Source of the DNA: Neelides folsomi
Taxonomy: Eukaryota; Arthropoda; Collembola; Neelipleona; Neelidae
Assembly (NCBI GenBank): GCA_034687125.1
Contig: JAQGBZ010000054.1
Span: 186,001-250,000, forward strand
Direction of reading: 5' to 3'
Length of the DNA stretch: 64,000 nucleotides
Of the stretch, positions 3,167 through 35,769 are shown piece after piece (positions within the stretch are counted from its first letter, which is position 1; every line of letters begins with the position of its first letter). The position numbers and the translations under genes were made by a program. The notes beneath the pieces were generated by a model. That model had not been told where the DNA came from, did no database searches, and saw nothing but the letters and a program-made list of their open reading frames with translations.

Positions 3167-6100
3167 TTAATTTAATTTGGCATAAAGTGGATTGCTGTGC
3201 TCGGTCGTGGCAGGAACGTAGAGGATATTTTCTTCCTGAAAATAAATGACAGTATATGTGTGAGATGATTTGGAAGAGGTGAAGGCGGCGATAAATTTAG
3301 AAGTGAGCTTATTGGGAAGGGAGTCATAAGAAGGATAGGGAGATGAGATGTTTAAAATCCGGTGTGGTTTGACTGTGTGAGCAAAAGGCTTTAAGAGCAA
3401 TATGCAACCACACAGATTCAATTCATCCTACACATTCCCTTATCTCGGATTATTTTGATATTGATTTAGAGGAAGGATTTGGAAGGTATATCAAAGTGAT
3501 GTTATTAATATTATTTATAAAAGATATTTCAAGGCTCACTTTCCATGAAGATTCTTGTGCTCTTTCTCTATTGAACCGGGCGACTTCTTTTTTATTATTC
3601 ACATAGACGCAGACTCTCCATATCAAAATTCCGACTAGGCCAATTAATACGGTTATTATCAGAGGGGCGGTGATGATCCAAAACAAAGGGGCGTCTTTTG
3701 GGCAATTCAACTCTTTTTGTATTTTCAAATGAACTCTCTTGTCGTCCGATTCTCTGTAGACGAAAGGCATGGTGCAGGTTTTCTTTTCTTTATTTACAAT
3801 CTTCACCTGGGAGCAATCAACCTCATCTTGGTCGGGGTCAGCTGGAAAATAAGAATTTATGTATTGAGAATCAACCCTCGTTTGTTCTCTTAAATGTTAC
3901 CTGTGACAAAATCCAATATTTGAATATTCGACTCCTCGTTCACACCATCCCGGGCACAAGTAGAGTTGCAATTAGGAGTCTTTTCAAACGCTTGACATTT
4001 GACACATGCAGATAATTCTTCACAGTGTGTCTCGCATCCCTTAAAATTTCAAAAGAAAATTTCCTTATTTGACCATGTTAAATTGACACATTACAAATAT
4101 TCTTACAATGCGTGTGTCAATTGTATGGTAATATTGATAAATATCTACTTTTTACGGTTTTAGGAATATACCATATTGTTAATGTGCATACATTCTTAAA
4201 CTTTGGGATGGTATATTATAATATCTGTACATAAATGTACATAATTATAGGTAAGTATGAACTATAACATAATGTTACTTACAATGCATTTTTGACAAAA
4301 TTGTCCTTCATATTTAGTTGGAGGTGTTGAATTAGGATTTGAAATGCATTTACAAACTCCACATTCGCATGTTCCAAATCCACCACAAATGAGACTGCTG
4401 CCGGGTTGAATGCATGTGCTCTGTTTTTAAAACAATCTATTATTCATTATATAAATTCAAAATGCAAATGTATACTTAATAAAGGTAATTGTAATTACCT
4501 TGTCTGTTGTGCATTCGCATGCTTCTCCCTCCCATCCTGGAGTGCATTTACACTTTTGACAAACGCATTTGCCTTGACTAGGCCCAGAACAAACATTACC
4601 ATTATGTCTTTTGCAATTGAAATTTGAGCATTCACAATATTTTCCGTAAAACATTTCCCCGGGTGTATCAGTCGTATCACAGACACATTGGCCGCAATCG
4701 CATTTTCCTCTATTTGAACAAATTTCTTCTGTATTTGGGAGTTTGCATCCTTGCTCCAGAACTTCATTTTTTCCCAAAATAGAGTATCCCTTGCATTGGC
4801 AAAAATTTCCGTAGTTTCCGTCTTTGCAATCGCAAACCCCACATTTAGAATCTGCTCCTTGACACATTTCATCATTTTCTTTATAGCCCTATTAATCCAT
4901 TTTTCATTAATTCTATTTTCAAGGAATTAAATAACAGATTAATTTATTATGTTTAACAATGTAGGCATTGATTAAAAATCATGTTTATGACTTACCGGAC
5001 GACCTTTAATTTCACATTCACAATCGCATATAATTTCCAGATGGACCGTAACACTTTCGTTTAATCCCAAAGGATAGATTTCAAATGTTCTCTTTCTTTG
5101 GCTTGGATCTTCTGGACATTCAGGAACATCGATATTCACGTCGAACCTTTAAAAAATACTTTTTATTCTATTGAATTTAGACCACAACTTGTAGTTCAAT
5201 CAGCACGAATTTCTGTTGAACCATACTGATTTTAATACATAGTATAAATGTATAATTTACTCGATAGTATCTCTAATATTGAATCCTGAGCATTTATTTG
5301 GAGGATTAAATCCCCCAGAATTATGCCATAGACATTGATAGGATATCTTCAAAGGAGCACTTGCTGTGTCTTTGAGCTCAACAGTTGACGTAATACGCTA
5401 AATTAAATTAATTCATTTAATCCCAGGTGATTCATGCAATACAAATGTCCTAAACTTATCAATATTCCATTTATCTAATTATAATTTATTTATTTGCGTA
5501 CGTAAATAGTCGTGCTTAATATTTCAATGATATTCGAGGAGTCGCTGGTGAGAACGGCCGTTCCGGAGCTTTCAATGAACCCATTCATAGTTTCATAGAC
5601 TTCCTTGTGATGCTCTGGAACCGCGAAGATGACAGAGACGGAGTGTTGTTTCGCTTTCGAGGCGATCTGCCCAATTGATGGATAGTCCAAGACATTCGAG
5701 TGCGTGTAGTATTTGGACGTCGGGTCGAGGTGACATTTCCCGTCATTCGGTCGAACGATCCCCAACAACTACGTTTTCATCTTTATTTACGGGATCCGAG
5801 GGAGATGAGCCGGAAATAGAGAATTTTATAAACGTACCTTCCCGTCACCCGCAATGTGAGGCAAGGCATCCGTTGAGAGGATGACGAGCTTCCGGGCAGC
5901 TTTATCTCTCCACCCTTCACAAGGAGCAAAAACACTTAATGAGTTCACAATTTTACTTTTTCGGCTCAATTCCTCAATTTACGACTTCGAATATTGAAGT
6001 TAAAAATGAAAGAGGGAAAGTTATTACCGATTTCGGGGCACACAATTGCTTGCATAAGGCCATCAAATGCTCCTTCGGGTGAGTCAGTGTTGCCGGAGAT

Positions 6101-10165: not shown

Positions 10166-10740
10166 CAGAAATGGGCACCGGAACGGAATCGTAACTACCA
10201 GAACGGAATTTGGAAAAGTGAAGGGCCACCGGAATCGGAACGGAATTTGGAAAAGCGAAGGCCACCGGAATCGGAACGGAATTTGGAAAAGTAAAGGCCC
10301 ACCGGAATCGGTACGGAACGGAATTTGGAAAAATGAAGGCCACCGGAATCGGAACGGAATGGAAACTTGCATGTTAAAGGATAGGGACTTTCAATTCCGA
10401 AAGTCTATTGAGACCGAAACGGAATCGGAATAGGAATGAAAAGGTCGATCGGAATCGAAACGGAACGGAATTTGGAAAAGTGAAGGCCCACCAGAATCGG
10501 AACGGAACGGAATATGGAAAAGTAAAGGGCCACCGGAATCGGAACTGAACGGAATTTGAAAAAGAGAAGGCCATCGGAATCGAAACGGAACGAAATTTGG
10601 AAAAGTAATGTGCCACCGGAATCGGAACGGAATTTTCGAAAAGTGAAGTCCACCGGAACGAAACGGAATCGGAATTCCCGATTCCGTTCCGTTCCGTTTG
10701 CACGTTCCGGACTTGATCGGAACCAAAACGCCCGGGTCTG
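10166..10740. mobile_element. hAT-like non-autonomous element filled by a minisatellite
   Basis: Ends are CAGAAATGGGC on the left and, read inward on the other strand, CAGACCCGGGC on the right (8 of 11 match). The 8-bp flanks are GTAACAGG (10158-10165) and GTTGCAGG (10741-10748), 6 of 8 identical. Inverted ends starting CAG with an 8-bp target duplication are the layout of hAT transposons. The body is a degenerate tandem array (see the repeat entry). No transposase frame is present. Assignment to hAT rests on ends and flank length only. Confidence 0.6.
10175..10700. repeat. GGAAC-rich minisatellite, about 36-42 bp units
   Basis: About nine degenerate units share the words CACCGGAATCGGAACGGAA and TTTGGAAAAGTGAAGGCC. 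Successive copies of CGGAATTTGG start at 10204, 10241, 10277 and 10319, giving spacings of 37, 36 and 42. A divergent, non-repeat stretch of about 60 bp interrupts the array near 10370-10430. At about 10678 the sequence flips to the complementary strand through a palindrome (GGAATCGG AATTCCCGATTCC), forming part of the element's right inverted end. Long open frames run through it on both strands only because the array lacks stops; they are not genes. Confidence 0.85.
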
Positions 10741-10748
10741 GTTGCAGG

Positions 10749-12776
10749 AGACTGTTTTTACCACGCTTCCTGTGGGGGGATAAAAAACATTTTGAAATAT
10801 GAAAATGCGATCTCATTTCTTCTCATCCCACTAATAACGTGGTGGTGATTACGGGATAAGCAAAGCCTGACACAACAAGTGTTCCTCGGCTTAATATTCA
10901 CAATTGGAGACCTCTCGAAAATATGAATACGAGTTGAACACGAGATTCATAAATAATTCGTCAATGAGAGGCTGTGGAGGGGTCTATTCATATGCCATGA
11001 TAAAAGATGAAGGATTGAATACAGGGGACAAAGTGGGACCGCAAAAACACGCAGCCAGACTGAAAGACAAATTACTCTAATAAAAAACATTACCAAATGT
11101 CATGGGGCTCATTTGAGTAAACGACTCTCTTCGTGGTGGCATAGGGAAAGTTGACATGTCATATCTGCTCTGCTCTTTCCATTCATAGAATCATTAAATG
11201 CAGAAGGGAGAATCCCATAAAGATTTTTATCTCTTCAAATCAACACTCTGTTTTTCAGTCTTTCTATTTCGACAGCTCCACTCTATTACAAATATATTGT
11301 GTATTCAATCATATTACACTGTATTGTGTTTGCATACTTTATCTAAAATCATTTTATTAGTATTTAACAATAAAAATTTTCTATTTAATTATAAATCGAT
11401 TATGAATAATAAAATTATCAATCACAAAGTTTGAAAGGTTTTTAAGCATCAACCCTAAATAAAGCATAAACTTTTGCACATCATGGTAAATTTCATGTGT
11501 ATTAAAATATATTGAATTTTTTGAAATAGAAATAAAAATAAAAATATTGCATATAAAAATTATAGCTAACACCCTTTACCCAAAACTCCCAAAGCGTAAT
11601 TTGTTATTCAATAATAAACAAAGTTCGTTGATGTGCAAAAGTATCTATTATTATCCTCATGTGAAAAGTCAACGAGCGTTTAGAAAAAAGATATTTTAAA
11701 GGTTAAGAGACCAAGAAAAAAGCATTACGAGTACTCGTATTTGATAGCTATTCTGAAAAGGGTCCTCCTTCGATCGTGACTTTTCCATAACGCAAACCGA
11801 GCTGTATTTTTTGTGCTGAGGGAGTTGGGGGTTTCAAATCGCCCTAAGCGAGAATTCATTCTCCGAGACGGAATTTTGTTGAGTCTTGGAATCTGGCGAA
11901 CAAGTGTTGAGCCGAGTTATGCAAATGATTAGGCAGATCTTCCAATGAGAAGAGGTTTAGCTTTTTAGGAAACCCACCCACCCCCGCTCCTGTTGACTCA
12001 CTTTGCTTATTTCTTTCTACACTGCTCCGTCACATCCAAGTCTTCCAAGACCCCTTCCACACACTTCTGGACCCTCGTTGGCCTCATCCGCCCATTGATT
12101 GAAAAGGAAGTAGGAGATTGCTCTCAAAACACAGGTGACTCATTTTTTCATTATCTTCAATGATTACTAAGCGTTAGGAAGTGTGACGTCGGTGAAGGTA
12201 ACCTCCCAATGATGGTGAATGATAGAATATGCATTTTATAATAAGGTGAATCATCAGTGACAATAATAACTTGCTCTCCCCTCATCCTTACACTAACAAT
12301 CGCTGTATCAAAATACACATTTCCCCTTAAGAGTGAGCCATAAAAAGGTGACCAATTCCAGCCCATATTTATACCCAAAGGACCAAAGAGAAAATTCAGT
12401 CTACAATCAACCGTTCTGTGTTGAAGTCGGTCTTATAAGTAGTTTGGGTAAAAATATCGCAAAACATATACCAAAAGTTCTAGCTTTTCCAATCAATATC
12501 AACATAAAAAGGTAATGTCGTTCAACGTGTTGACAGTTTATCTTGTTTAAATAAACTTAGGAATATCACTCTGTTTTTTACAGTGTGAAAGTCAATAAAA
12601 AACTATCAATTAATCCAAATACAAATTGTACTACCCTGATAGTGACTTGAAACTTTAATATTATAAAATACTATAGTCAATTACTTGTTTGATATTCAGC
12701 CTCTCAGAAGTTTATTTTATTTTCGATTATTTATTTATCTGAAATCGTTATTCTAATTTATTATTTTTTTAGAAAA
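10749..12776. other. Intergenic, upstream of Pmp3-like gene
   Basis: Mostly AT-rich. Positions about 11700-12140 are less AT-rich and may hold the promoter and a 5' non-coding exon of the next gene: a possible donor (CACAG|GTGACT) lies near 12133 and an acceptor (TTTTTTTAG) ends at 12772. This 5' exon is a guess. Confidence 0.35.
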
Positions 12777-12950
12777 ATGGCGTGGACCTGTTCAGACATT
12801 TGCAAAATCATTCTTGCCGTCATCCTCCCACCAATCGGAGTGTTGGCTGAGCGTGGATGTGGAGTCGACTTTCTCATCAACATTGGGTTGACAATTTTGG
12901 GATTTATCCCTGGCATCATCCATGCCATTTACATCATTGGGAAATATTGA
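12777..12950 (+). CDS. Pmp3/UPF0057 family small membrane protein
   Basis: A single coding exon gives 57 residues, the usual size of the Pmp3 (plasma membrane proteolipid 3, UPF0057) family: two short transmembrane helices with a hairpin loop. The family signature is clear: [13 protein letters not shown] at residues 16-28, then [20 protein letters not shown] and a final IYIIGKY. In yeast and plants these proteins sit in the plasma membrane and affect cation tolerance and membrane potential; the role in animals is poorly known. A pyrimidine-rich acceptor (TTATTTTTTTAG) ends five nucleotides before the ATG, so a non-coding 5' exon probably lies upstream. The start is the only one that gives the family N-terminus. 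Confidence 0.95.
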
Positions 12951-14667: not shown

Positions 14668-14818
14668 TTTAAATGAAGTTCTGATATTCCTAAATAGGTA
14701 ATATAGTTTAACTCATAAAGATTTGAGAATCCCCCAAAATATATAATGGGACAATTCAAAAGTCTTTCTAAAATATTTACATACTAATTCTAAGTAATTA
14801 CATAAAACATTGTTTGAC

Positions 14819-14889
14819 TTTCATCATAAAGTCATCCGCATCTTGATTTGGCTATACCATTTGTTCGAGATGCTTCATAAAAGATGAAA
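14819..14889 (-). promoter_or_regulatory. SECIS-like stem-loop in presumed 3' UTR
   Basis: Read on the minus strand from 14889: helix I TTTCATC pairs with GATGAAA (7 bp); an internal loop follows; then ATGA (14878-14875) faces GGAT, which gives the U.U, G.A, A.G non-canonical quartet core (TGAA opposite GGAT). Helix II starts with GCATCT paired to AGATGC, then G-C and A-T pairs after one mismatch. Nine nucleotides after ATGA comes an AA at the apical side, and a small TGG/CCA hairpin closes the apex, as in form 2 SECIS elements. It lies about 200 nt after the stop codon of the gene with the in-frame TGA. Found by eye; no folding program was run. Confidence 0.7.
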
Positions 14890-15085
14890 TGCCAAATTAG
14901 TTTTAATTATCAACTATTGAACATTTAAATGTTATATTCACTTATTTCTAATACAGAATATGTAAAAATTATAATCATTAATTAATGACTGCCACTGAGC
15001 ATTAAAAAAGTTAAATGAAGAAAATGCCTACCTACAGATACATTATAAATGAATACGTGTTTAGACTATAAATTATCTTTATTAG

Positions 15086-16087
15086 TTAATCAACCTTGGG
15101 GAATATCTTCGTCTCATCCTCTGAAGATGTTTTTTTTATATCGTCGGAATCGGAAATCCTAAGAGCTTCAAGTATTTCGGAATTTGCAATATGTTCCGCT
15201 GGGCCTTCTTGCCTATATGATAAAAGAACTTCACCGCCGCCCCGTTTTATAATTAAAGTTCCCCCATTTTGTAATCCATCTCCTTTAAGATCACCATCAA
15301 GGTTCTCTGCTCTGGCCTTTAACAATAATTAAAAAAAGTAAGATATCATTAGTGAAAAAAATCTATATTACAAATAATTAGAATCGGATTTACTTTTGAA
15401 ATAGCTGCTCTTGACTTTGAATAAAAGAGAGACATGATTATTGTACAAATGTTGTAACGTCGATATCCGAGTGCACGGTAAGCTCTTTGTTTCACATCAA
15501 CGTACAAATCCCCTATACAAGACAATTCAAAATAATCAATATAAGCAAGTTGATTTAAAATCCTTGATCATTATTCAAATAATAAATAAATACAAATATG
15601 AAAAGGGTAAAAGTTAAATAATACCTTTGAAGTAGTCTCCTTTAACAAATTCATCCAATCCTAATTCTTCTAATCCAATTCCCACTAATTTAACATCATT
15701 CGCGTCGAGCAAGGGCTTCAGAGTTGAAATCTCCATCGCCGCTTGCCGACAGAATATTCATCCAAATCTTCTAAAAAATGTTATCACTACAGTCTTGTTT
15801 TCCCAAAGACTCCCCATCCTGACTTCCTAAAAATCAATTACTTTTAATATAATTTATTCATTCCAAAAACGTTTTAAACTTTAATATTTTAATGAATTAC
15901 AACAATTAGTATAATTAGCACAAATAGTAATAGCTTGATTAGAAATAAGAAATATTTCAGGGTAAAAGGTAAAACTTACCTCCATTGAAGGAACTTTCTT
16001 GACCATATTTTGGCTTATTTTATTGGCTTCCATTGCAATTATTGAACGTCGATTTGCGACGAGTCTTCGAGTTGTAATAAGAATCAT
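15086..16087 (-). CDS. PRXL2/SelU-like thioredoxin-fold protein with in-frame TGA (candidate selenocysteine)
   Basis: Peroxiredoxin-like 2 family (PRXL2, also called FAM213 or SelU), nearest in pattern to PRXL2B (prostamide/prostaglandin F synthase), a thioredoxin-fold oxidoreductase. Exons: 16087-15980, 15826-15625, 15512-15394, 15316-15086; all phases agree and all splice sites are intact, giving 219 residues. Exon 2 reads ITFFRRFG-TGA-IFCRQAAMEIS: the TGA (15760-15758, residue 59) replaces the first Cys of the CxxC redox motif, which is CLFC in the paralogue at 19426-20645. Downstream sequence stays in frame and conserved (LVGIGLEELGLDEFVKGDYF, GDLKGDGLQNGGTLII, VLLSYRQEGPAEHIAN). With the SECIS-like element in the 3' flank this fits UxxC. 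The first ATG gives MILITTRRLVANRRS, a basic, possibly mitochondrial leader; a second Met at residue 19 matches the paralogue's start. Alternative: a Cys-to-stop null allele or sequencing error. Confidence 0.85.
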
Positions 16088-19425: not shown

Positions 19426-20645
19426 TCAATTTAATCCTTCATGATCTTCCATTCCCAATGCAGAGAGAATTGCTGAATTTGGCAGCAAATCTGCTGGATT
19501 CTCTTGTTTGTAACAGAGAAAAGTTTCGTGTCCTCCTTGGTCGACAATTAAAGTTCCACCTAAAATTTGCAATAAATTTCAAAATTCCAATGAATATTTT
19601 AAAAACGTTTAAATGCTAGTTTAAATAAATTTACCAGTAGAGTAATTCATTTAATATTTATATTAAAAAGATTTAGGTTATGATAGGTTAGGTTTATATG
19701 TTTTTGTTATGTTTATATTGAAAAAGTTTATTTATATTAATTACCATTTTGAAACCCATCGCCTTTAAAATCTCCACCAAGTCCATCGGCACGGCTCTAA
19801 TGAATTAAAAAAAACCCATTAAGTTTCCTATATAGACATTAAAAATGAATGTGATTAATTGGTAAAAGTTTACCTTTGACAAAGCATCCTTCGTCTGCCT
19901 GTTGAATAGGGAAGTGACCATATTGAGATAACCCAGTCGCTTGAACCCCATTTGTTTGTACGTCTCCTTGTTCTCGTCCTACAAATCAATAAGATAGCAT
20001 GAGTTGAAACCACCATCACATGCATGCAAGAATGGAAAGAATGTAAATTTTTGATTACAATGTAGAGATCTCCTGCGAAATATCCAGCTTTTACAAAGTC
20101 ATCCAGACCAATGTCGTCCATTCCGATTCCAATGAGACGGACGTTTCGTGCAGCAAGCTGTGGTGCAATTGTGCTGATTTCTTTTGCTGATTGTCGACAA
20201 AAGAGACAACCAAATCTTCGGAAAAATATTATGACACATGGCTGGTCAATCCAGAAACTTTCCATTTTCACATTCTAAAATGAACAAATTGTTGAATTTT
20301 ATCAATTTTCTCCACTTTCCCTACCTGTATAACTATAATTGTAAAAATTGAAACTTTTTCTAAATAATAGTTAATAAGATGTTTGAATAAAGCATTAATC
20401 AAGATCATAGATTGATAATTTGATGAAATATAATTTTAAAAGTTACAAATCTCTTAAGATCGAAACAGCTGCTGTCAATTCCATACAAGGATATAAATCA
20501 TAAGTGGATTTAAATTCAATCTGTTTAATCTTTTTATCTTGTTCAAAAGCTGAAGATTAAATAAGTTGAGTAAAAACCCCAAAGCTACCTCCATATTTGG
20601 AACTTTTTTGACAATCGTCTGTCCGATCTTCTCAGCCTCAGACAT
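19426..20645 (-). CDS. PRXL2B-like thioredoxin-fold oxidoreductase (Cys form)
   Basis: Peroxiredoxin-like 2 family, closest in motif order to PRXL2B (prostamide/prostaglandin F synthase, an NADPH/thioredoxin-linked reductase in mammals); the substrate here is unknown. Exons: 20645-20589, 20274-20059, 19978-19874, 19796-19745, 19559-19426, phases consistent, 187 residues. Visible motifs: FFRRFGCLFCRQSAKEIS with the redox CxxC at Cys42 and Cys45, VRLIGIGMDDIGLDDFV, AGYFAGDLYI, YKQMGFKRLGY, GDFKGDGFQNGGTLIV, and a C-terminal CYKQENPADLLPNS-AIL helix. No mitochondrial-type leader: it starts MSEAEKIGQTIVKKVPNME, parallel to the internal Met of the Sec-type paralogue. The exon layout is shared at the first junction but this copy has one more intron in the C-terminal half. 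Family assignment is firm; enzymatic role is inferred. Confidence 0.92.
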
Positions 20646-25500: not shown

Positions 25501-28156
25501 TCCACCTTCATTTTTAATCAATATTCATATACATTATATTTCAAACACAGAGTATCTTATTTAGAAATAACGCAATGATATATTGATTCATCTGATTTAT
25601 TGTGACAGAATTATTGGAACTTTTTTGCAAAATCTTTACAAAGCCTATGAAGAACTTTACTTTACATTTCTCGAGCTGAAACCATTCCGAGTCCACAATG
25701 GTAAAATCTACATTCTTAATGCCTCAGCCAAGCTCGACTCTACGGCCGAGTATCTTTGTAAAGAACGGTGGGGAGAAGTTGAATATCCTCCGCCATTCGG
25801 TCGGGAAGCTCACCCCGAAGAAGGATACATTGCATATTTGGACTCAAAGTCTGGGGCTTGTCTCAAGCTCAAAGTTTTGAATCCCAATGGACGAATTTGG
25901 ACCATGATTGCTGGAGGAGGAGCGTCGATAATTTACGCTGACACGATATGCGAAATGGGTGGAGCGAATGAATTGGCGAATCATGGAGAATATTCCGGAG
26001 CTCCTTCTGAACAACAATCTTACGAATATGCCAAAACTGTCATTTCCCTCATGACCAAGACGAAGCATCCGGATGGGAAAGTTCTCCTCATTGGTGGAGG
26101 AATCGCCAATTTTACGAATGTTTCATTAACGTTTAAAGGAATTGTGACCGCCCTTGAAGAATCCAAAGTTAAGCTAGTCGAGTACAAAATCTCAATTTTT
26201 GTGAGGAGAGCTGGACCGAATTATTTGGAAGGATTGCAAGTAATTCGGGATGTTGCAAAAAACCTAGAGATTCCTCTCCATGTCTTTGGACCTGAAACGT
26301 ACATGACAGCTATTGTGGCCATGGCCCTTGGCAATAAACCTCTCAAGTATGAAGATAGTAATAATGAGATGCAAAATTCAAGTTATCTGCTTCCTGGAGG
26401 TTTGAAAAACTTAAATAATTACTACATTAAATAACTTTATCCATTTATTAATCAAATTAATATTTAATAACATTTTTAAAACAGAAAGGGCCATTGGAGA
26501 TGAAAAAGTTTTCCGAATTGCTCTATTCGGAATAAAGAGACTTTCCGTTGACCAAATGGCCGAGATGAACATTTTTGATGCAAGTAAAAGCAAGCTTTTC
26601 TCAAAATCAAGCAAAGCGATTATTTGGGGAATGCAAAGCAGAGCTGTACAGGGAATGTTGGATTTTGACTATGTTTGCAGAAGAAAAGAACCTTCGGTAA
26701 ATAAATCAATTTACGTAAAATTAAGTATTTTACAATTTACAATGTAATGATGTCCATTGATAATTATTCAAAAGTTCAATTTTTTGTTTCTGACATTTTA
26801 ATAACCACACACCTAATTCAGTGACTTATTAATTTTAATTATAACATAATAAAATTATTTATTTTCAGGTGGTGGCAATGGCATATCCTCTAATAACCGG
26901 AGACCACAAGCAAAAGTTCTATTGGGGTCATAAAGAAATTTTAATTCCAGTATTCAAAAACATGGTTGATGCATTTGAGAGACATCCAGAGGCAACGATC
27001 CTTGTGAATTTCTCTTCAATCCGTTCCGCCTTCCAGTCAACAATGGACACTTTGGAACACGGAAAGAACATTAAAACAATTGCTGTCATTGCAGAAGGAA
27101 TCCCAGAAAATCTCACAAGGAGAATCATTAAAAAAGCAGATGAGAAAGGAGTTTTGTTAATTGGCCCTTCAACAATTGGAGGAATTAAACCTGGAGCGTT
27201 TAAGATTGGAAATACTGGAGGGATGTTGGACAACATTTTGTATACCAAATTGTATAGACCTGGAAGCGTTGCTTATGTGAGCAAGTCTGGTGCGATGACA
27301 AATGAACTCAACAATATCATTTCAAAAACTTCTGATGGGGTTTGTGAAGGAATTTCTCTAGGAGGTGATCGATACCCAGGATCTTCTTTTATGGACTTTA
27401 TTTCAAGGTTTCAAGAGAATCCTGAAGTAATTAACCAATCTTGATTCGCTAAAAATTTATTGAAATAGGATAATTAAAATGCATAATTAGTCTCTTTGTT
27501 TAATGAAAATAATTCAAATTATTATGATTAATTTTTTATTTAAGATAAAAATGATTGTTTTACTCGGAGAAGTTGGAGGAACTCAAGAACTCGAAGTTTG
27601 TGCTGCATTGAAAGAAAGAAGAATTACGAAGCCAATCATTGCTTGGTGTATTGGTAATTAATTATTTAATATAAATTAAATTATTTAATACAAAGATAAT
27701 AATTAAGTACTTTCAATTTAATATTATACAGGAACTTGTTATAACGAACTATCTGTTGATATCCAATTTAATCACGCTGGAGCATATGCGGTGTGTAAAG
27801 AAGAAACGGCTGTCTTCAAAAATAAAGCGCTCCAAGAAGCTGGAGCTTTTGTGCCGGGGTCCTTTGACGAGCTCGGAAACACAATCCAAAGAGTATACGA
27901 GGGTTTGTGAAAAATGTCCTAATAACACTCAATGATATAATGAATTCATAAATTATACATTCAAATAACATGCTTATCAATCATTTTGCTCAATTAAATT
28001 CTAGATTTGGTTAAGAATGGTGTAATCGACCTTCAAGAAGAAGCCCCTCCGCCAACAGTACCAATTGACTTCTCAAGAGCACGGGAATTGGGATTGATAA
28101 GAAAACCAGCGTCGTTTGATGAAGAAGATGTTCAATCTTTTGGCCAACCACTATGA
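22585..28156 (+). CDS. ATP-citrate lyase-like protein lacking the citrate-synthase domain (probable pseudoenzyme)
   Basis: 839-residue ACLY paralogue. Exons: 22585-22863, 25059-25124, 25314-25495, 25609-26399, 26485-26696, 26869-27426, 27545-27653, 27732-27902, 28005-28156; phases consistent. It keeps the ATP-grasp N-terminus, the citrate-binding/CoA-ligase modules ([66 protein letters not shown]) and the phospho-His loop (FNHAG, His747). After GLIRKPASF the protein diverges from ACLY and stops 17 codons later ([12 protein letters not shown]), so the C-terminal citryl-CoA lyase domain and tetramer core are absent. In the ATP-grasp site the family motif EINP is ELKP (Lys200) and DLAAK is NASAK (Asn213), replacing both Mg ligands; RRGKLG is GRGKLG, and the HHEGGVD motif is gone. 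Splice sites and frame are intact, so it is expressed-looking rather than a pseudogene. Intron 1 is 2.2 kb. Confidence 0.9.
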
Positions 28157-30005: not shown

Positions 30006-33000
30006 ATGTCAGCGAAAGCGATCCGCGAAGCAACCGGGAAAGCTATTCTCAATAAGTATTTTGCAAACAAGCCGACCATCCACCAAAGCCAATTTGCAAG
30101 CATCGAACCCGACTCGGACTGGGACGTTTTAATCAATGCGAACCCATGGATGAAAAATTCGCTCGTCGTCAAGCCCGACCAGCTGATCAAGCGACGAGGA
30201 AAACTCGGGCTCATCAAGGTCAACTCCGACGTCCAAACTGTCAAGAAATGGGTTGAGGAACGGATGAACAAAGACGTGAAAGTATGGACATTTTTATTTA
30301 GTTCCATTTTATAATAATTATAAGTTCCACAATAATTATAAGTATTGGTCTTTGAAAACTTTTAGTTGAACAAAGAGAAATTTAATTATATTTAGAATGT
30401 CTCAGCTCCCATTGTGAAATTCCCACTTGGGCATAATATGAGAAAAGTCTTAATGAAATTCCGATTTTAAATGTTGAAATCCCAGGGATTGTACAGAAGT
30501 TGTTGGAAAATAGTTAAGCGTCGTTGTAATAAGGATTAGACATAGTGTTTTATTTCTCCATTTTCCCAGCGTAATCTTTTCCCCTACATCTAGAATCGTA
30601 ATATCGTAAATTGTAAGTACGCGTATTAAATATCAACCATTGTGCCTTTACACTAAAAAGTATTTAACGTTCTTCCTCTGCCTCGTGAGAACCTGGGAAC
30701 GAACGGAGACTGATTGGTGCGACTTATTATGCAACAATTCCTAATATATGGATTAATTCTTTAAATGTAAAACTATTTTTATAAGGCTCATTCAAAGTCG
30801 GAAGGCTTTAATAGGAAAATGAGTTTAGATTTTAGTTAATCTACATTTAGCATGTATTTTGTTAACGACTCATCTTTTAAATCGCCTATTATGTAAAATG
30901 TAATTGACGGCCAATATTTATTCCACTATATTGAAGACAAGGTGAATGATGTACGTGGATGGACACGCCATAAAATCTTTTGAACCCGTCGAGCGAAAAG
31001 TCTAGAATCTCTCTATACATTACATAAATCCAAGTGATGATACTCGAACGAGTAATATGAAGGAGTAAGAAGTAATAAGAAGTCATATCGTATCGTAGTC
31101 AGGATATGAAATTGCAACACACACCCCTTTTGCCCTCAGCAAACTCCCATCGTCCTCATTCTTCAAAATGAACTCGTCTTTGGGAACTGAGAGAACTTGA
31201 AATCCGCTCTTGAGCCTCTTCATTATTCACACATTTTACTCCATTCCCTTATTGTTCTCCCTATCCCTCCATCGGAATTTGCTCTCAGAGATAATCAGCA
31301 TTGTATTGATTGCGCACTTGGGCAGTTGGGCTTTGTAGGAGAGACTATATGGGATTTATAAAATCAATAATCTCTTTCCGAGGCGAAGAAACGATAAAAG
31401 CGTATAAAAATAAGAAATTTTTATGTATGAATAGGTCGAAAAAGCCACTGGGAAGCTGAGACGATTCATTGTGGAACCATTCCTCCCCCATGCGCAGGTA
31501 AGGGTCGAAGGGAGAGTTTCCTTAAAAGATACCCGGGTCGGAGCGACCTTGAGCCGGTGTCCCACTTATCGATCCATTTTGGAATAGGATGAGGAGGCGT
31601 ATGTGTGCATCTACTCGCACCGCCAAGGGGACACGATCCTCTTCCACCATGAAGGAGGCGTCGACATTGGTGACGTGGACAGCAAGGCGAGTTCCCTCCT
31701 CGTTGCGATTGACACGTTCCCAACCGTTGATGAAGTCCGAACCGCACTTCTCGGCCAAGTTCAGAAGGAGAAGCAAGAGTGAGATTAAAAATGAATGAAA
31801 TGATTTATATTGCACTTTCCTTTTAAACTCTTTTCTTATGACCTTTACCCTTTATCACCGATATATACCTTTATCGTCATTTCTTTCCATTAATGCAGAC
31901 TCATCGCGGACTTCATCGTGACTCTTTTCAAGGCATACTCCGAGTTGTATTTCACTTACTTGGAGATCAACCCACTTGTGATTACTAATGGAAAAGTTCA
32001 CGTTCTTGATCTGGCTGCGAAGCTCGACGCAACGGCGGATTATCTATGTAGAACCATGTGGGGAGAGATTGAGTATCCTCCACCGTTCGGACGAGACGCA
32101 TATCCTGAAGAGGCCTACATTGCGGATCTTGATGCGAAGTCAGGAGCGAGTCTCAAACTTACGATTTTGAACCCAAAGGGACGGATATGGACGATGGTTG
32201 CTGGTGGTGGTGCTTCTGTTATTTACTCAGACACGATCTGTGAAATGGGAGGAGCGAGCGAATTGGCAAATTATGGAGAATACTCTGGAGCTCCGTCGGA
32301 GCAGCAAACTTATGAATATGCCAAGACGCTTTTGTCGCTCATGACCAAAGAGAAACATGCCGATGGAAAAGTTCTGATCATTGGAGGAGGAATTGCAAAT
32401 TTTACGAATGTTGCAGCAACTTTCAAGGGAATTGTCACGGCTCTTCAGGAATTTCAACCAAAATTGGTTGAGTTTGGAATCTCCATTTTTGTGCGGCGAG
32501 CTGGACCTAATTATCAAGAAGGTCTCAGAGTCATCCGTGACATTGGAGTCAGCTTGGGAATTCCTCTTCATGTATTTGGGCCTGAAACCCACATGACGGC
32601 AATTGTTGGAATGGCTCTTGGGAAAAAGCCCATTTCTTATAACACAGATTGTCCATCCACCACAGCAAATTTCCTTTTACCAGCTGGACAAAACAACATT
32701 GTAAGTTTCAGATTTTAATTCCATTTTTGCAAAAGTTTTTATTACATATCTTTGTTTTATAGATATCATGCCTTTGAATGTTTAAAAAATGATTTTATTT
32801 TCAATTTAGAAAAGTCCATCGGTGACCAGAAAATCTTCTGAACTTGTGCCATCACCAGTTGACTCTACTGATGGTGTCGGTGCTATTTCTACTGCTGTGA
32901 ATAACAACTCCAGTGGTCATACTTCACTTTTTAGCAAAAATACGAAAGCAATTGTGTGGGGCATGCAAACCAGGGCAGTTCAAGGAATGCTCGACTTTGA

Positions 33001-35769
33001 CTTTGTCTGTCGAAGAAGTTCTCCATCGGTAAATTAAAAAGCTGATTAATATTTTAACAGTTCATTTTATATACTTTTAAATTCCATTTGTTAAATGTTA
33101 AAATTTATAATTTAAAATCAGGTCGTTGGAATGGTTTATCCATTCACTGGAGATCACAAGCAGAAGTTCTACTGGGGACACAAAGAGATTCTCATTCCAG
33201 TGTACAAAAATATGGATGATGCGTTCAAGAAGCATCACGATGCGACAGTCATGGTCAATTTTGCTTCTCTTCGTTCCGCATATGATTCAACCATGGAGGC
33301 ATTGAGCTACCCGCAAATCAAAACGATTGCTATCATTGCAGAAGGCATTCCAGAAAACATGACAAGAAAGATTATCAAGAAAGCCCAAAGTAATAATGTG
33401 GCCATTATTGGGCCTGCAACTGTCGGAGGAATTAAGCCAGGATGTTTCAAGATTGGAAACACTGGTGGAATGATGGACAACATTCTTTATTCGAAATTAT
33501 ACAGACCGGGAAGCGTGGCTTATGTCAGTCGCTCTGGTGGAATGAGTAATGAATTGAACAATATCATTTCCAAAGCCTCTGATGGAGTCTTTGAAGGAGT
33601 TGCTATTGGTGGGGATAGATATCCAGGAACGACTTTCATGGATTTCATCATCAGATATCAAAATGATCCTCAGGTTCTTAAATAACTAACAATATAAAAT
33701 AATTAGGAAATAAGAATAAAATCAAAACATAACTTTAACCCAATGATAATTATAATAATAATAATTAATTAAAAAATTGTTTGTATCTTTAGATCAAAAT
33801 GATTGTTCTTCTTGGTGAAGTTGGAGGAATTGAAGAATACGAAGTTTGTGAGGCTTTAAAGGACAAGAGAATCACGAAGCCTCTTGTCGCCTGGTGCATT
33901 GGAACTTGTGCTGGAATGTTCAACTCAGAAGTTCAATTTGGTCATGCTGGGTCGTGTGCAAACTCTGATCGCGAAACTGCCGTGACAAAGAACAAATCTC
34001 TCAGGGAGGCTGGAGCCTTCGTTCCAAACACTTTTGACGATCTCGGAACTCAAATTCAATCAGTGTTTGAGAGCCTGGTGGAAGAAGGCGTCATTGAAGT
34101 GAGGGAAGAACTTCCTCCTCCTACAGTACCAATGGACTTTTCATGGGCAAGGTATTTAAAATTCTAATATCTCTCTAAATATATTCCACAAATTGTATTT
34201 ATTCTTAAATCAAAATTCATTAAGAATTCTTGACTGTTTTCAAATTATTTACTAAAATGTAATTTTATAATTTTTAGAGAGTTGGGGCTGATCAGGAAAC
34301 CAGCCTCGTTCATGACCTCAATTTGCGATGAACGAGGACAAGAATTGCTCTACGCTGGAATGCCCATTTCTGATGTGAGTTGCTTACTGCGACCCTGACT
34401 TACTTTATTGTTAGTTTTTGAAGAAATGGATTAATTTGTTGATTTATTGTAGGTGTTAAAGCAAGATTTGGGTATTGGTGGAGTTATTTCCTTATTGTGG
34501 TTCCAACGACCACTTCCCATTCACGCATGCAAGTTCATTGAGATGTGTTTAATGGTGACGGCTGACCACGGGCCTGCCGTGTCAGGGGCACATAATACCA
34601 TCGTCTGTGCACGTGCTGGAAAAGATCTTGTCTCATCACTCGTCTCTGGCCTTCTCACTATTGTAAGCTCGAATTTTGCAATATTTTATTATGCAATTCC
34701 AGTTTTTATGTTCACATGAGCTTTTTAAACTCATCTGTTCTTTTATCTAATAATTGCATTGAAATTAAAACTCGGTTGCATCAACGAATCTATTAATTCA
34801 TTCACCTTGTGTTTGGAATATAAAATTTTTGAGCAACTTTTCTTACTCAATTACTTTTATTGTTATTTGAAAAATGATTTCACGTGTACTTTATATCGTT
34901 ATTTACTATAATACGAGGTTAATGTTAGAATTAAAGTTTAAATGACATTTTTATATGAATTACCGACAGTAATATAATATTAATTAATAATTTTTTATTT
35001 TAGGGCGACAGATTTGGGGGAGCCTTGAATGGTGCTGCGCTTCAATTCAGTGAAGCTTATGATGCTGGACTTCATCCAATGGAATTTGTGAACTCAATGA
35101 GGAAAAAGGGTCAGTTGATCATGGGAATTGGCCATCGTGTCAAGTCAATCAATAATCCCGACATGAGAGTGAAAATCATTAAGGAATATGTCAACACACA
35201 CTTCCCCACAACACCTCTTCTCAATTACGCTCTTGAGGTAATTAAATTATTTTATATCTAACATTAAGTTGATTTGATGTATTTTCACCAATTATTGAGC
35301 GATTTTTATTAAATACCAATAAACATCTGTTATTGTTGTAGGTTGAGAAAATTACAACCTCAAAGAAGCCTAATTTGATTCTCAATGTTGATGGTATTAT
35401 TGCCGTCGCTTTCGTCGACTTCCTTCGTCATTCCGGGTGCTTCACAATGTAAGTCATTTCTATATTATATGTACAGAATTGTAATTTCGACGACCGGATA
35501 CATGAGAAAATAAAATACTGATATTATAATATAATATTTTTATCTACGTATAATTACTAAATGAAAAGTATTTAATTGACAATGTTTTTTAATAAAGGGA
35601 GGAAGCCCAAGAGTACATTGAAATGGGTTCGATCAACGGATTGTTTGTCCTTGGGCGCAGTGTCGGTTTCATTGGTCATTTCATGGATCAGAAGAGACTG
35701 AAGCAAGGATTGTACCGACATCCGTGGGATGACATTTCATACGTCTTGCCTGAACAGTATAATCAGTGA
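30006..35769 (+). CDS. ACLY: ATP-citrate lyase, complete
   Basis: Cytosolic ATP-citrate synthase: citrate + CoA + ATP gives acetyl-CoA + oxaloacetate + ADP + Pi, feeding lipid synthesis. Exons: 30006-30281, 31435-31497, 31588-31778, 31899-32700, 32810-33028, 33122-33673, 33793-34151, 34278-34374, 34453-34662, 35004-35237, 35342-35448, 35598-35769; 1093 residues, close to the 1101 of the human enzyme. ATP-grasp part: [34 protein letters not shown] (Asn201) and DLAAK (Asp214), the metal ligands. Phospho-His loop FGHAG (His752). C-terminal citryl-CoA lyase domain: [62 protein letters not shown]. The Ser-rich linker in exon 5 ([11 protein letters not shown]) could be phosphorylated like the vertebrate linker. 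All catalytic motifs are present. Tandem paralogue of the truncated copy upstream. Confidence 0.97.

Follow-up and report, generated by a model that had tools for sequence, protein, structure and literature searches.

The question raised by this locus is whether a TGA codon lying within an otherwise open gene acts as a stop or is read as selenocysteine (Sec). The DNA analysed, referred to below as the window, is a stretch of 64,000 nucleotides from the collembolan Neelides folsomi, and all positions not attributed to another contig are window positions. On its minus strand, a gene designated here as gene A carries the TGA at the place where a neighbouring paralogue, gene B, encodes the first Cys of a CxxC motif. 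A candidate selenoprotein was seen in gene A by the original prediction and, on the evidence presented below, gene A very probably encodes a functional selenoprotein belonging to the PRXL2B family. Standard annotation is expected to call it a truncated protein of 40 residues or a pseudogene.

Structure of gene A and position of the TGA codon

Direct reading of the minus strand identifies codon 15760..15758 as an in-frame TGA. The gene holding it comprises four exons, with the TGA in the second, and is organized as follows.

15980..16033, minus strand: gene A exon 1, open reading frame and GTAAGT donor
15625..15826, minus strand: gene A exon 2, site of the putative Sec codon and of the motif's second redox Cys (UIFC)
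15758..15760, minus strand: putative Sec codon TGA, opposite the first CxxC Cys of 9us9_A and of gene B in the alignments
15394..15512, minus strand: gene A exon 3
15086..15316, minus strand: gene A exon 4, ending in the TAA stop (15088-15086)

The exon borders are of the GT..AG type and, in the spliced frame, the TGA is the sole stop ahead of the TAA. It constitutes codon 41 and is followed by 160 residues. The surrounding residues read RRFG-TGA-IFCRQ in gene A versus RRFG-TGT-LFCRQ in gene B. A second in-frame ATG for gene A is present at 16087 and would add 18 residues (window 16034-16087), of sequence MILITTRRLVANRRSIIA. This leader is rich in Arg and could, as a guess, represent a candidate mitochondrial signal.

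Elsewhere in the window, two tandem ATP-citrate lyase genes, both displaying the citrate-binding domain, are located on the plus strand (25571-27444 and 31894-34167), and a Pmp3-family proteolipid of 57 residues is encoded at 12777-12950 (PF01679, 82.7 bits). At 10170-10700, visual inspection shows a degenerate array of repeats in which CGGAATCGGAACGGAA units abound. In the genome as a whole, the cuticle domain PF00379, which is largely confined to arthropods, gives at least 39 matches, as befits an arthropod.

Assignment to the PRXL2B family

The gene A protein matches the thioredoxin-like model PF13911 (AhpC-TSA_2) with 73.1 bits for a cut-off of 27 (E 3e-20). Comparison to the PDB at E values up to 0.001 returned two matches, 9us9_A (E 2.1e-41) and 9usa_A (E 4.2e-40), both named prostamide/prostaglandin F synthase and both of which we take to be human PRXL2B. 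Residues 10-180 of the 201 of gene A align to 9us9_A, and the TGA is aligned with the first Cys of the CxxC motif of this chain (RRFG-C-xxC vs RRFG-U-xxC); 9usa_A displays Ser at both Cys of the motif. Gene B, with a CxxC after RRFG, matches 9us9_A with an E value of 2.9e-42. Since the PDB matches are to prostamide/PGF synthase, gene A and gene B are classified as PRXL2B-like, an assignment based on the PDB match and the motif. The SelU-like family originally proposed is thus retained at the level of the SelU/PRXL2 family, but the subfamily is PRXL2B ('SelU3') and not the SelU1 of fish. The NCBIfam model of the SelL-related redox protein (NF040769) also matches gene A (E 1.7e-17), its 63.6 bits falling short of the cut-off of 120.

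Comparison with the tandem cysteine paralogue

Gene B is located on the same strand, at the following positions.

19426..20645, minus strand: gene B, tandem Cys paralogue, five exons
20645-20589, 20274-20059, 19978-19874, 19796-19745 and 19559-19426, minus strand: gene B exons

The first Cys of its CxxC motif is encoded by a TGT at 20208..20206, aligned with the TGA of gene A. The two proteins share 96 identical residues among 186 aligned, Sec being counted as Cys, with 24/40 identities ahead of the TGA and 71/145 past it. At the nucleotide level, pN amounts to 0.32 overall and 0.34 downstream of the TGA, while pS reaches 0.83 and 0.82, respectively, the synonymous sites being saturated; third codon positions hold 100 of the 194 differences observed downstream of the TGA. 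As pN is well under the saturated pS past the TGA, selection has preserved the gene A protein downstream of this codon. Gene A is under purifying selection on both sides of the TGA, as opposed to chance or neutral decay.

These data, together with the GT..AG borders and the open frame, agree with the earlier claim that frame, splicing and conservation continue unbroken for about 160 residues after the TGA. The placement of this codon at the first Cys of the CxxC motif is likewise borne out, by the codon reading and by the alignments to gene B and 9us9_A.

Comparison of exon lengths and residues indicates that two of the three introns of gene A share their position with introns of gene B and that the third does not; gene B possesses a fourth intron. 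When gene B is used as a query against its own genome, eight matches are obtained, all within the gene A and gene B loci, and a PF13911 search of the genome adds one further, more distant member on contig C98. The open frame 5' of the gene B ATG contains no other Met.

A SECIS-like element downstream of gene A

The script used for SECIS scanning follows the plan of a TGA quartet, helix II, an unpaired AA, a GA quartet and helix I. Past the gene A stop, it ranked the site at 14877 first.

14808..14901, minus strand: predicted SECIS-like structure located 3' of gene A

The TGA of the element starts at 14877, 208 bases past the stop codon; absent from the original prediction, this element is the decisive piece of evidence gained here. 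Its core reads ATGAA, the AA lies 11 bases after the quartet and the 3' quartet is GGAT (14837-14834). The apical part contains a mini-stem GGT/GCC, type II-like, and the helices are long. According to this modelling, the 3' region of gene A carries a predicted SECIS on the coding strand.

A loose scan of both strands of the window produced 108 hit rows, among which the gene A site comes second, at -23.9 (-22.2 in another register). The plus-strand sites at 2079 (-27.4, first), 16714 (-23.6, third) and 16418 (-22.2) are unlike SECIS in that their apical arms span 70-72 bases. Another plus-strand site, at 10924, scores -20.5 with a 37-base arm, a weak helix II (-4.2) and the AA at offset 9; it is more SECIS-like than the sites with arms of 70-72 bases and has no known Sec gene adjoining. 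When the 1 kb following the gene A stop was submitted to dinucleotide shuffling (n=2000), 29 shuffles reached -15, three reached -20 and none reached -22, compared to -23.9 for the real sequence.

Folded as a single strand, the 94-base element yields a z of -2.72, with 3/200 shuffles equally good, and its minimum-energy fold pairs the quartet region unlike the SECIS plan; non-standard pairs are not modelled by the folding programs. Rfam in permissive mode gave no SECIS match near gene A; as it equally gave none for four other Sec genes at their loci, the miss at gene A carries no weight. The MAFFT alignments of the SECIS elements were too poor to serve for a covariance model. Poly(A)-type signals are found after the gene A stop at +2 (AATAAA), +178 (ATTAAA), +418 and +472 (both AATAAA); poly(A) addition at either of the first two would omit or cut the SECIS-like element.

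Selenocysteine machinery in the genome

The verification of Sec machinery suggested by the original prediction retrieved tRNA-Sec, SepSecS, EFSec and SPS2, the identity of EFSec being qualified below. The tRNA-Sec scores 76.1 bits for an Rfam cut-off of 47, is the only one of five matches above this cut-off and displays a TCA anticodon according to ARAGORN. The same Rfam search gave matches in 14/14 control genomes, above cut-off in 5, and only the cut-off is therefore informative. SepSecS is represented by five matches on one contig, all above cut-off, and SPS2 by four exon matches on contig C206, below the model cut-off of 125. The EFSec candidate, a GTPase on contig C307 with a GTP_EFTU match and the sequence MVNVNIGVTGHVDSGKTSLCKAL, is the best of 14 SelB-like matches; the cut-off of this model (242) applies to the whole protein and 0/14 matches exceed it. 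Its probable identity as EFSec follows from the best SelB match and from a reading of its sequence. SBP2 was not found in the genome using a human fragment, itself without a positive control, nor with PF01248, used without an SBP2 positive control, whose five matches correspond to other L7Ae genes; the three L7Ae loci, read by eye, presumably encode other L7Ae proteins.

Other genes with in-frame TGA codons

Five further genes of this genome contain an in-frame TGA together with a SECIS-like element, in which the AA is located at offset 11 as in gene A. In SPS2 (C206), the TGA lies in DLKG-TGA-GCKVPQE and the element in the 3' region. SelH (contig C827) reads S-TGA-RVFG with an element at +198 from the stop, and a GPx gene (contig C168) reads NVASK-TGA-G with an element in its 3' region; two GPx genes, located on C389 (NTASKC) and C80 (NVASQC), are Cys forms. 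The SECIS-like cores are found at positions 3955 (SPS2), 6482 (SelH, minus strand) and 2384 (GPx) within the respective pieces. The two remaining genes are located as follows.

C98:9500-17500: SelL-like gene, TGA codons from 2921 and 2930, SECIS-like core at 3643 (positions within the piece)
C102:36000-42500, minus strand: TrxR, end motif from 2850, SECIS-like core at 2733 (positions within the piece)

The SelL-like gene matches PF13911, as well as NF040769 with 93.5 bits (below the cut-off of 120), and both of its redox residues are encoded by TGA (RHFA-TGA-SP-TGA-R, a UxxU motif), the SECIS-like element being at +221. A first motif search for TrxR with a GCUG-type end gave no match. The last exon of the gene ends GAC TGC TGA AAT TAA, that is SIEPDC-TGA-N-stop, with a SECIS-like element at +90; this reading of the end and of the SECIS was made once the results of the first scan were known. 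The TrxR described here thus ends in CUN, in contrast with the usual CUG.

A strict version of the SECIS scan requires A or G before the TGA, the AA 10-12 bases in, an arm of 30-42 bases and energy limits for both helices, criteria that were fixed after the results of the first scan had been seen. Applied to both strands of 150,216 bases, it returned 13 rows corresponding to 11 distinct sites. Six of these follow the TGA genes (SPS2, PRXL2B, GPx, SelL-like, TrxR and SelH), the gene A site being second of the 11, behind SPS2. None of the remaining five scores better than -14.5, and one is located 155 bases beyond the SPS2 SECIS; the sites of TrxR (-13.7) and SelH (-13.4) do not outscore this background.

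The SECIS-like cores read GTGA in SPS2, SelH and the SelL-like gene, and ATGA in PRXL2B, GPx and TrxR. Cores of the GUGA type are described as belonging mainly to algae and sponges in PMC3473315; with three of six cores reading GTGA, the present arthropod falls outside that pattern.

Interpretation of the TGA codon

The selenoprotein reading of gene A accounts by far the best for the data because the SECIS-like element is accompanied in the same genome by tRNA-Sec, the putative EFSec, SepSecS, an SPS2 that itself contains a TGA, and further Sec genes. The original prediction of a candidate selenoprotein is supported on the same grounds.

Three other explanations were weighed. Gene A might be a pseudogene or a dying copy, its TGT or TGC having mutated to a true stop while the Cys paralogue does the work, and such a paralogue does adjoin it. 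This is nevertheless very unlikely, as the 201 codons show no other disablement, the introns are kept and purifying selection is observed ahead of and past the TGA. In addition, a well-formed SECIS-like element at +208 would not be expected for the pseudogene of a Cys enzyme. A rough neutral simulation yields about 5 stops downstream, with P(0)=0.009, a value that counts only if the TGA is old.

Stop-codon readthrough is known to occur in arthropods, and the TGA might be read through, or reassigned, without involving Sec. The coincidence with the catalytic Cys position and the SECIS-like element are accounted for by Sec and not by plain readthrough, which makes this explanation even less probable than a pseudogene. 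The sequence rests on one assembly, and the true codon could be TGT or TGC following an assembly or sequencing error. Chance would however have to strike the single position predicted to encode Sec, and this ahead of a SECIS-like element and in a Sec-using genome; such an error is the least credible of the three.

For gene A read as a selenoprotein gene, we infer transcription, Sec insertion, a catalytic role and a substrate. The proposed mechanism derives from the thioredoxin-like family and from the function of the human enzyme stated in PMC3473315. In the mRNA, the UxxC motif of the thioredoxin fold would open with a UGA in frame, and the SECIS hairpin of the 3'UTR would direct EFSec and Sec-tRNA(Sec) so that the UGA is read as Sec, resulting in a full-length protein of about 201 residues. 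The selenol of UxxC would then attack the oxidised substrate, and resolution would fall to the Cys located three residues further. A peroxide or endoperoxide, for example prostaglandin or prostamide H2, would be reduced in this manner, and the enzyme would be re-reduced by thioredoxin or by a like donor.

Origin of the pair and comparison with known systems

Gene B, the old tandem duplicate of gene A, would perform related chemistry via cysteine. No relic of the gene A SECIS was found by local alignment in the 2.5 kb after gene B (score 20.0; 200 shuffles, mean 21.4, maximum 30.0), and the sole match of the SECIS scanner in the 2.9 kb after gene B is weak (-13.7) and 2.5 kb distant. A tentative scenario, which we regard as possible rather than probable, has the Sec and Cys forms of PRXL2B standing side by side, gene B descending from an ancestor with Sec once the tandem duplication had occurred, with loss of its SECIS. 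The two would be split by compartment, the selenoenzyme being mitochondrial, provided that translation of gene A begins at the upstream ATG as well, and gene A might be the first arthropod Sec-PRXL2B described. A Sec enzyme and its Cys sister within one genome offer a natural control for the contribution of selenium to the reaction, and this tandem pair is the part of the case most deserving follow-up.

The Sec-PRXL2B pair had been put forward as notable in arthropods, a view that is only partly maintained. The presence of Sec in a non-insect arthropod is by itself unsurprising (PMC5330540) and Sec forms of the subfamily are already published (PMC3473315), but the adjoining Sec/Cys pair is of moderate interest. 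Among crustaceans, 17 selenoproteins are predicted in Lepeophtheirus salmonis and 16 in Daphnia pulex (PMC5330540, Table 3). In addition, 20 are reported in a centipede (PMC4244043) and many, as unpublished data, in shrimp (PMC2375036), and selenoprotein loss is reported in two mites (PMC5330540). No earlier arthropod Sec-PRXL2B appears among the matches listed in the open-licence literature; table S26 of the centipede study (PMC4244043), outside this scope, may list the family.

Human PRXL2B and gene A share a nearly full-length match and the RRFG-x-xxC motif, the human protein having Cys where gene A would have Sec. SelL, with its UxxU motif, is a distant relative of the UxxC protein of gene A, and a separate SelL-like gene is present in the same genome. 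The Sec of vertebrate SelU1 occupies the same UxxC position as the TGA of gene A. Vertebrate SelU1 (PRXL2A) belongs with gene A to the common SelU/PRXL2 family but to a different subfamily (PMC3316567, PMC3473315). All vertebrate Sec-containing SelU proteins fall in SelU1 (PMC3316567), human SelU proteins are all Cys forms (PMC3473315, section 8; PMC3316567) and SelU3 is named prostamide/PGF synthase (PMC3473315).

Sec forms of SelU2 and SelU3 were reported in invertebrates in 2012 (PMC3473315). Section 8 of that article describes eight SelU3 proteins in seven species, three of them being Cys forms (sea urchin, amphioxus and sea squirt). The six species of its Table 1 are a sponge, a placozoan, a sea anemone, a limpet, an annelid and amphioxus, with no arthropod among them, and the word 'arthropod' is absent from the text of the article. 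Gene A would extend Sec-PRXL2B, published from other invertebrates, to an arthropod genome: the invertebrate Sec-SelU3 proteins and gene A belong to the same subfamily, with Sec in the former and very probably in the latter, and the Table 1 hosts of the former are non-arthropod (PMC3473315).
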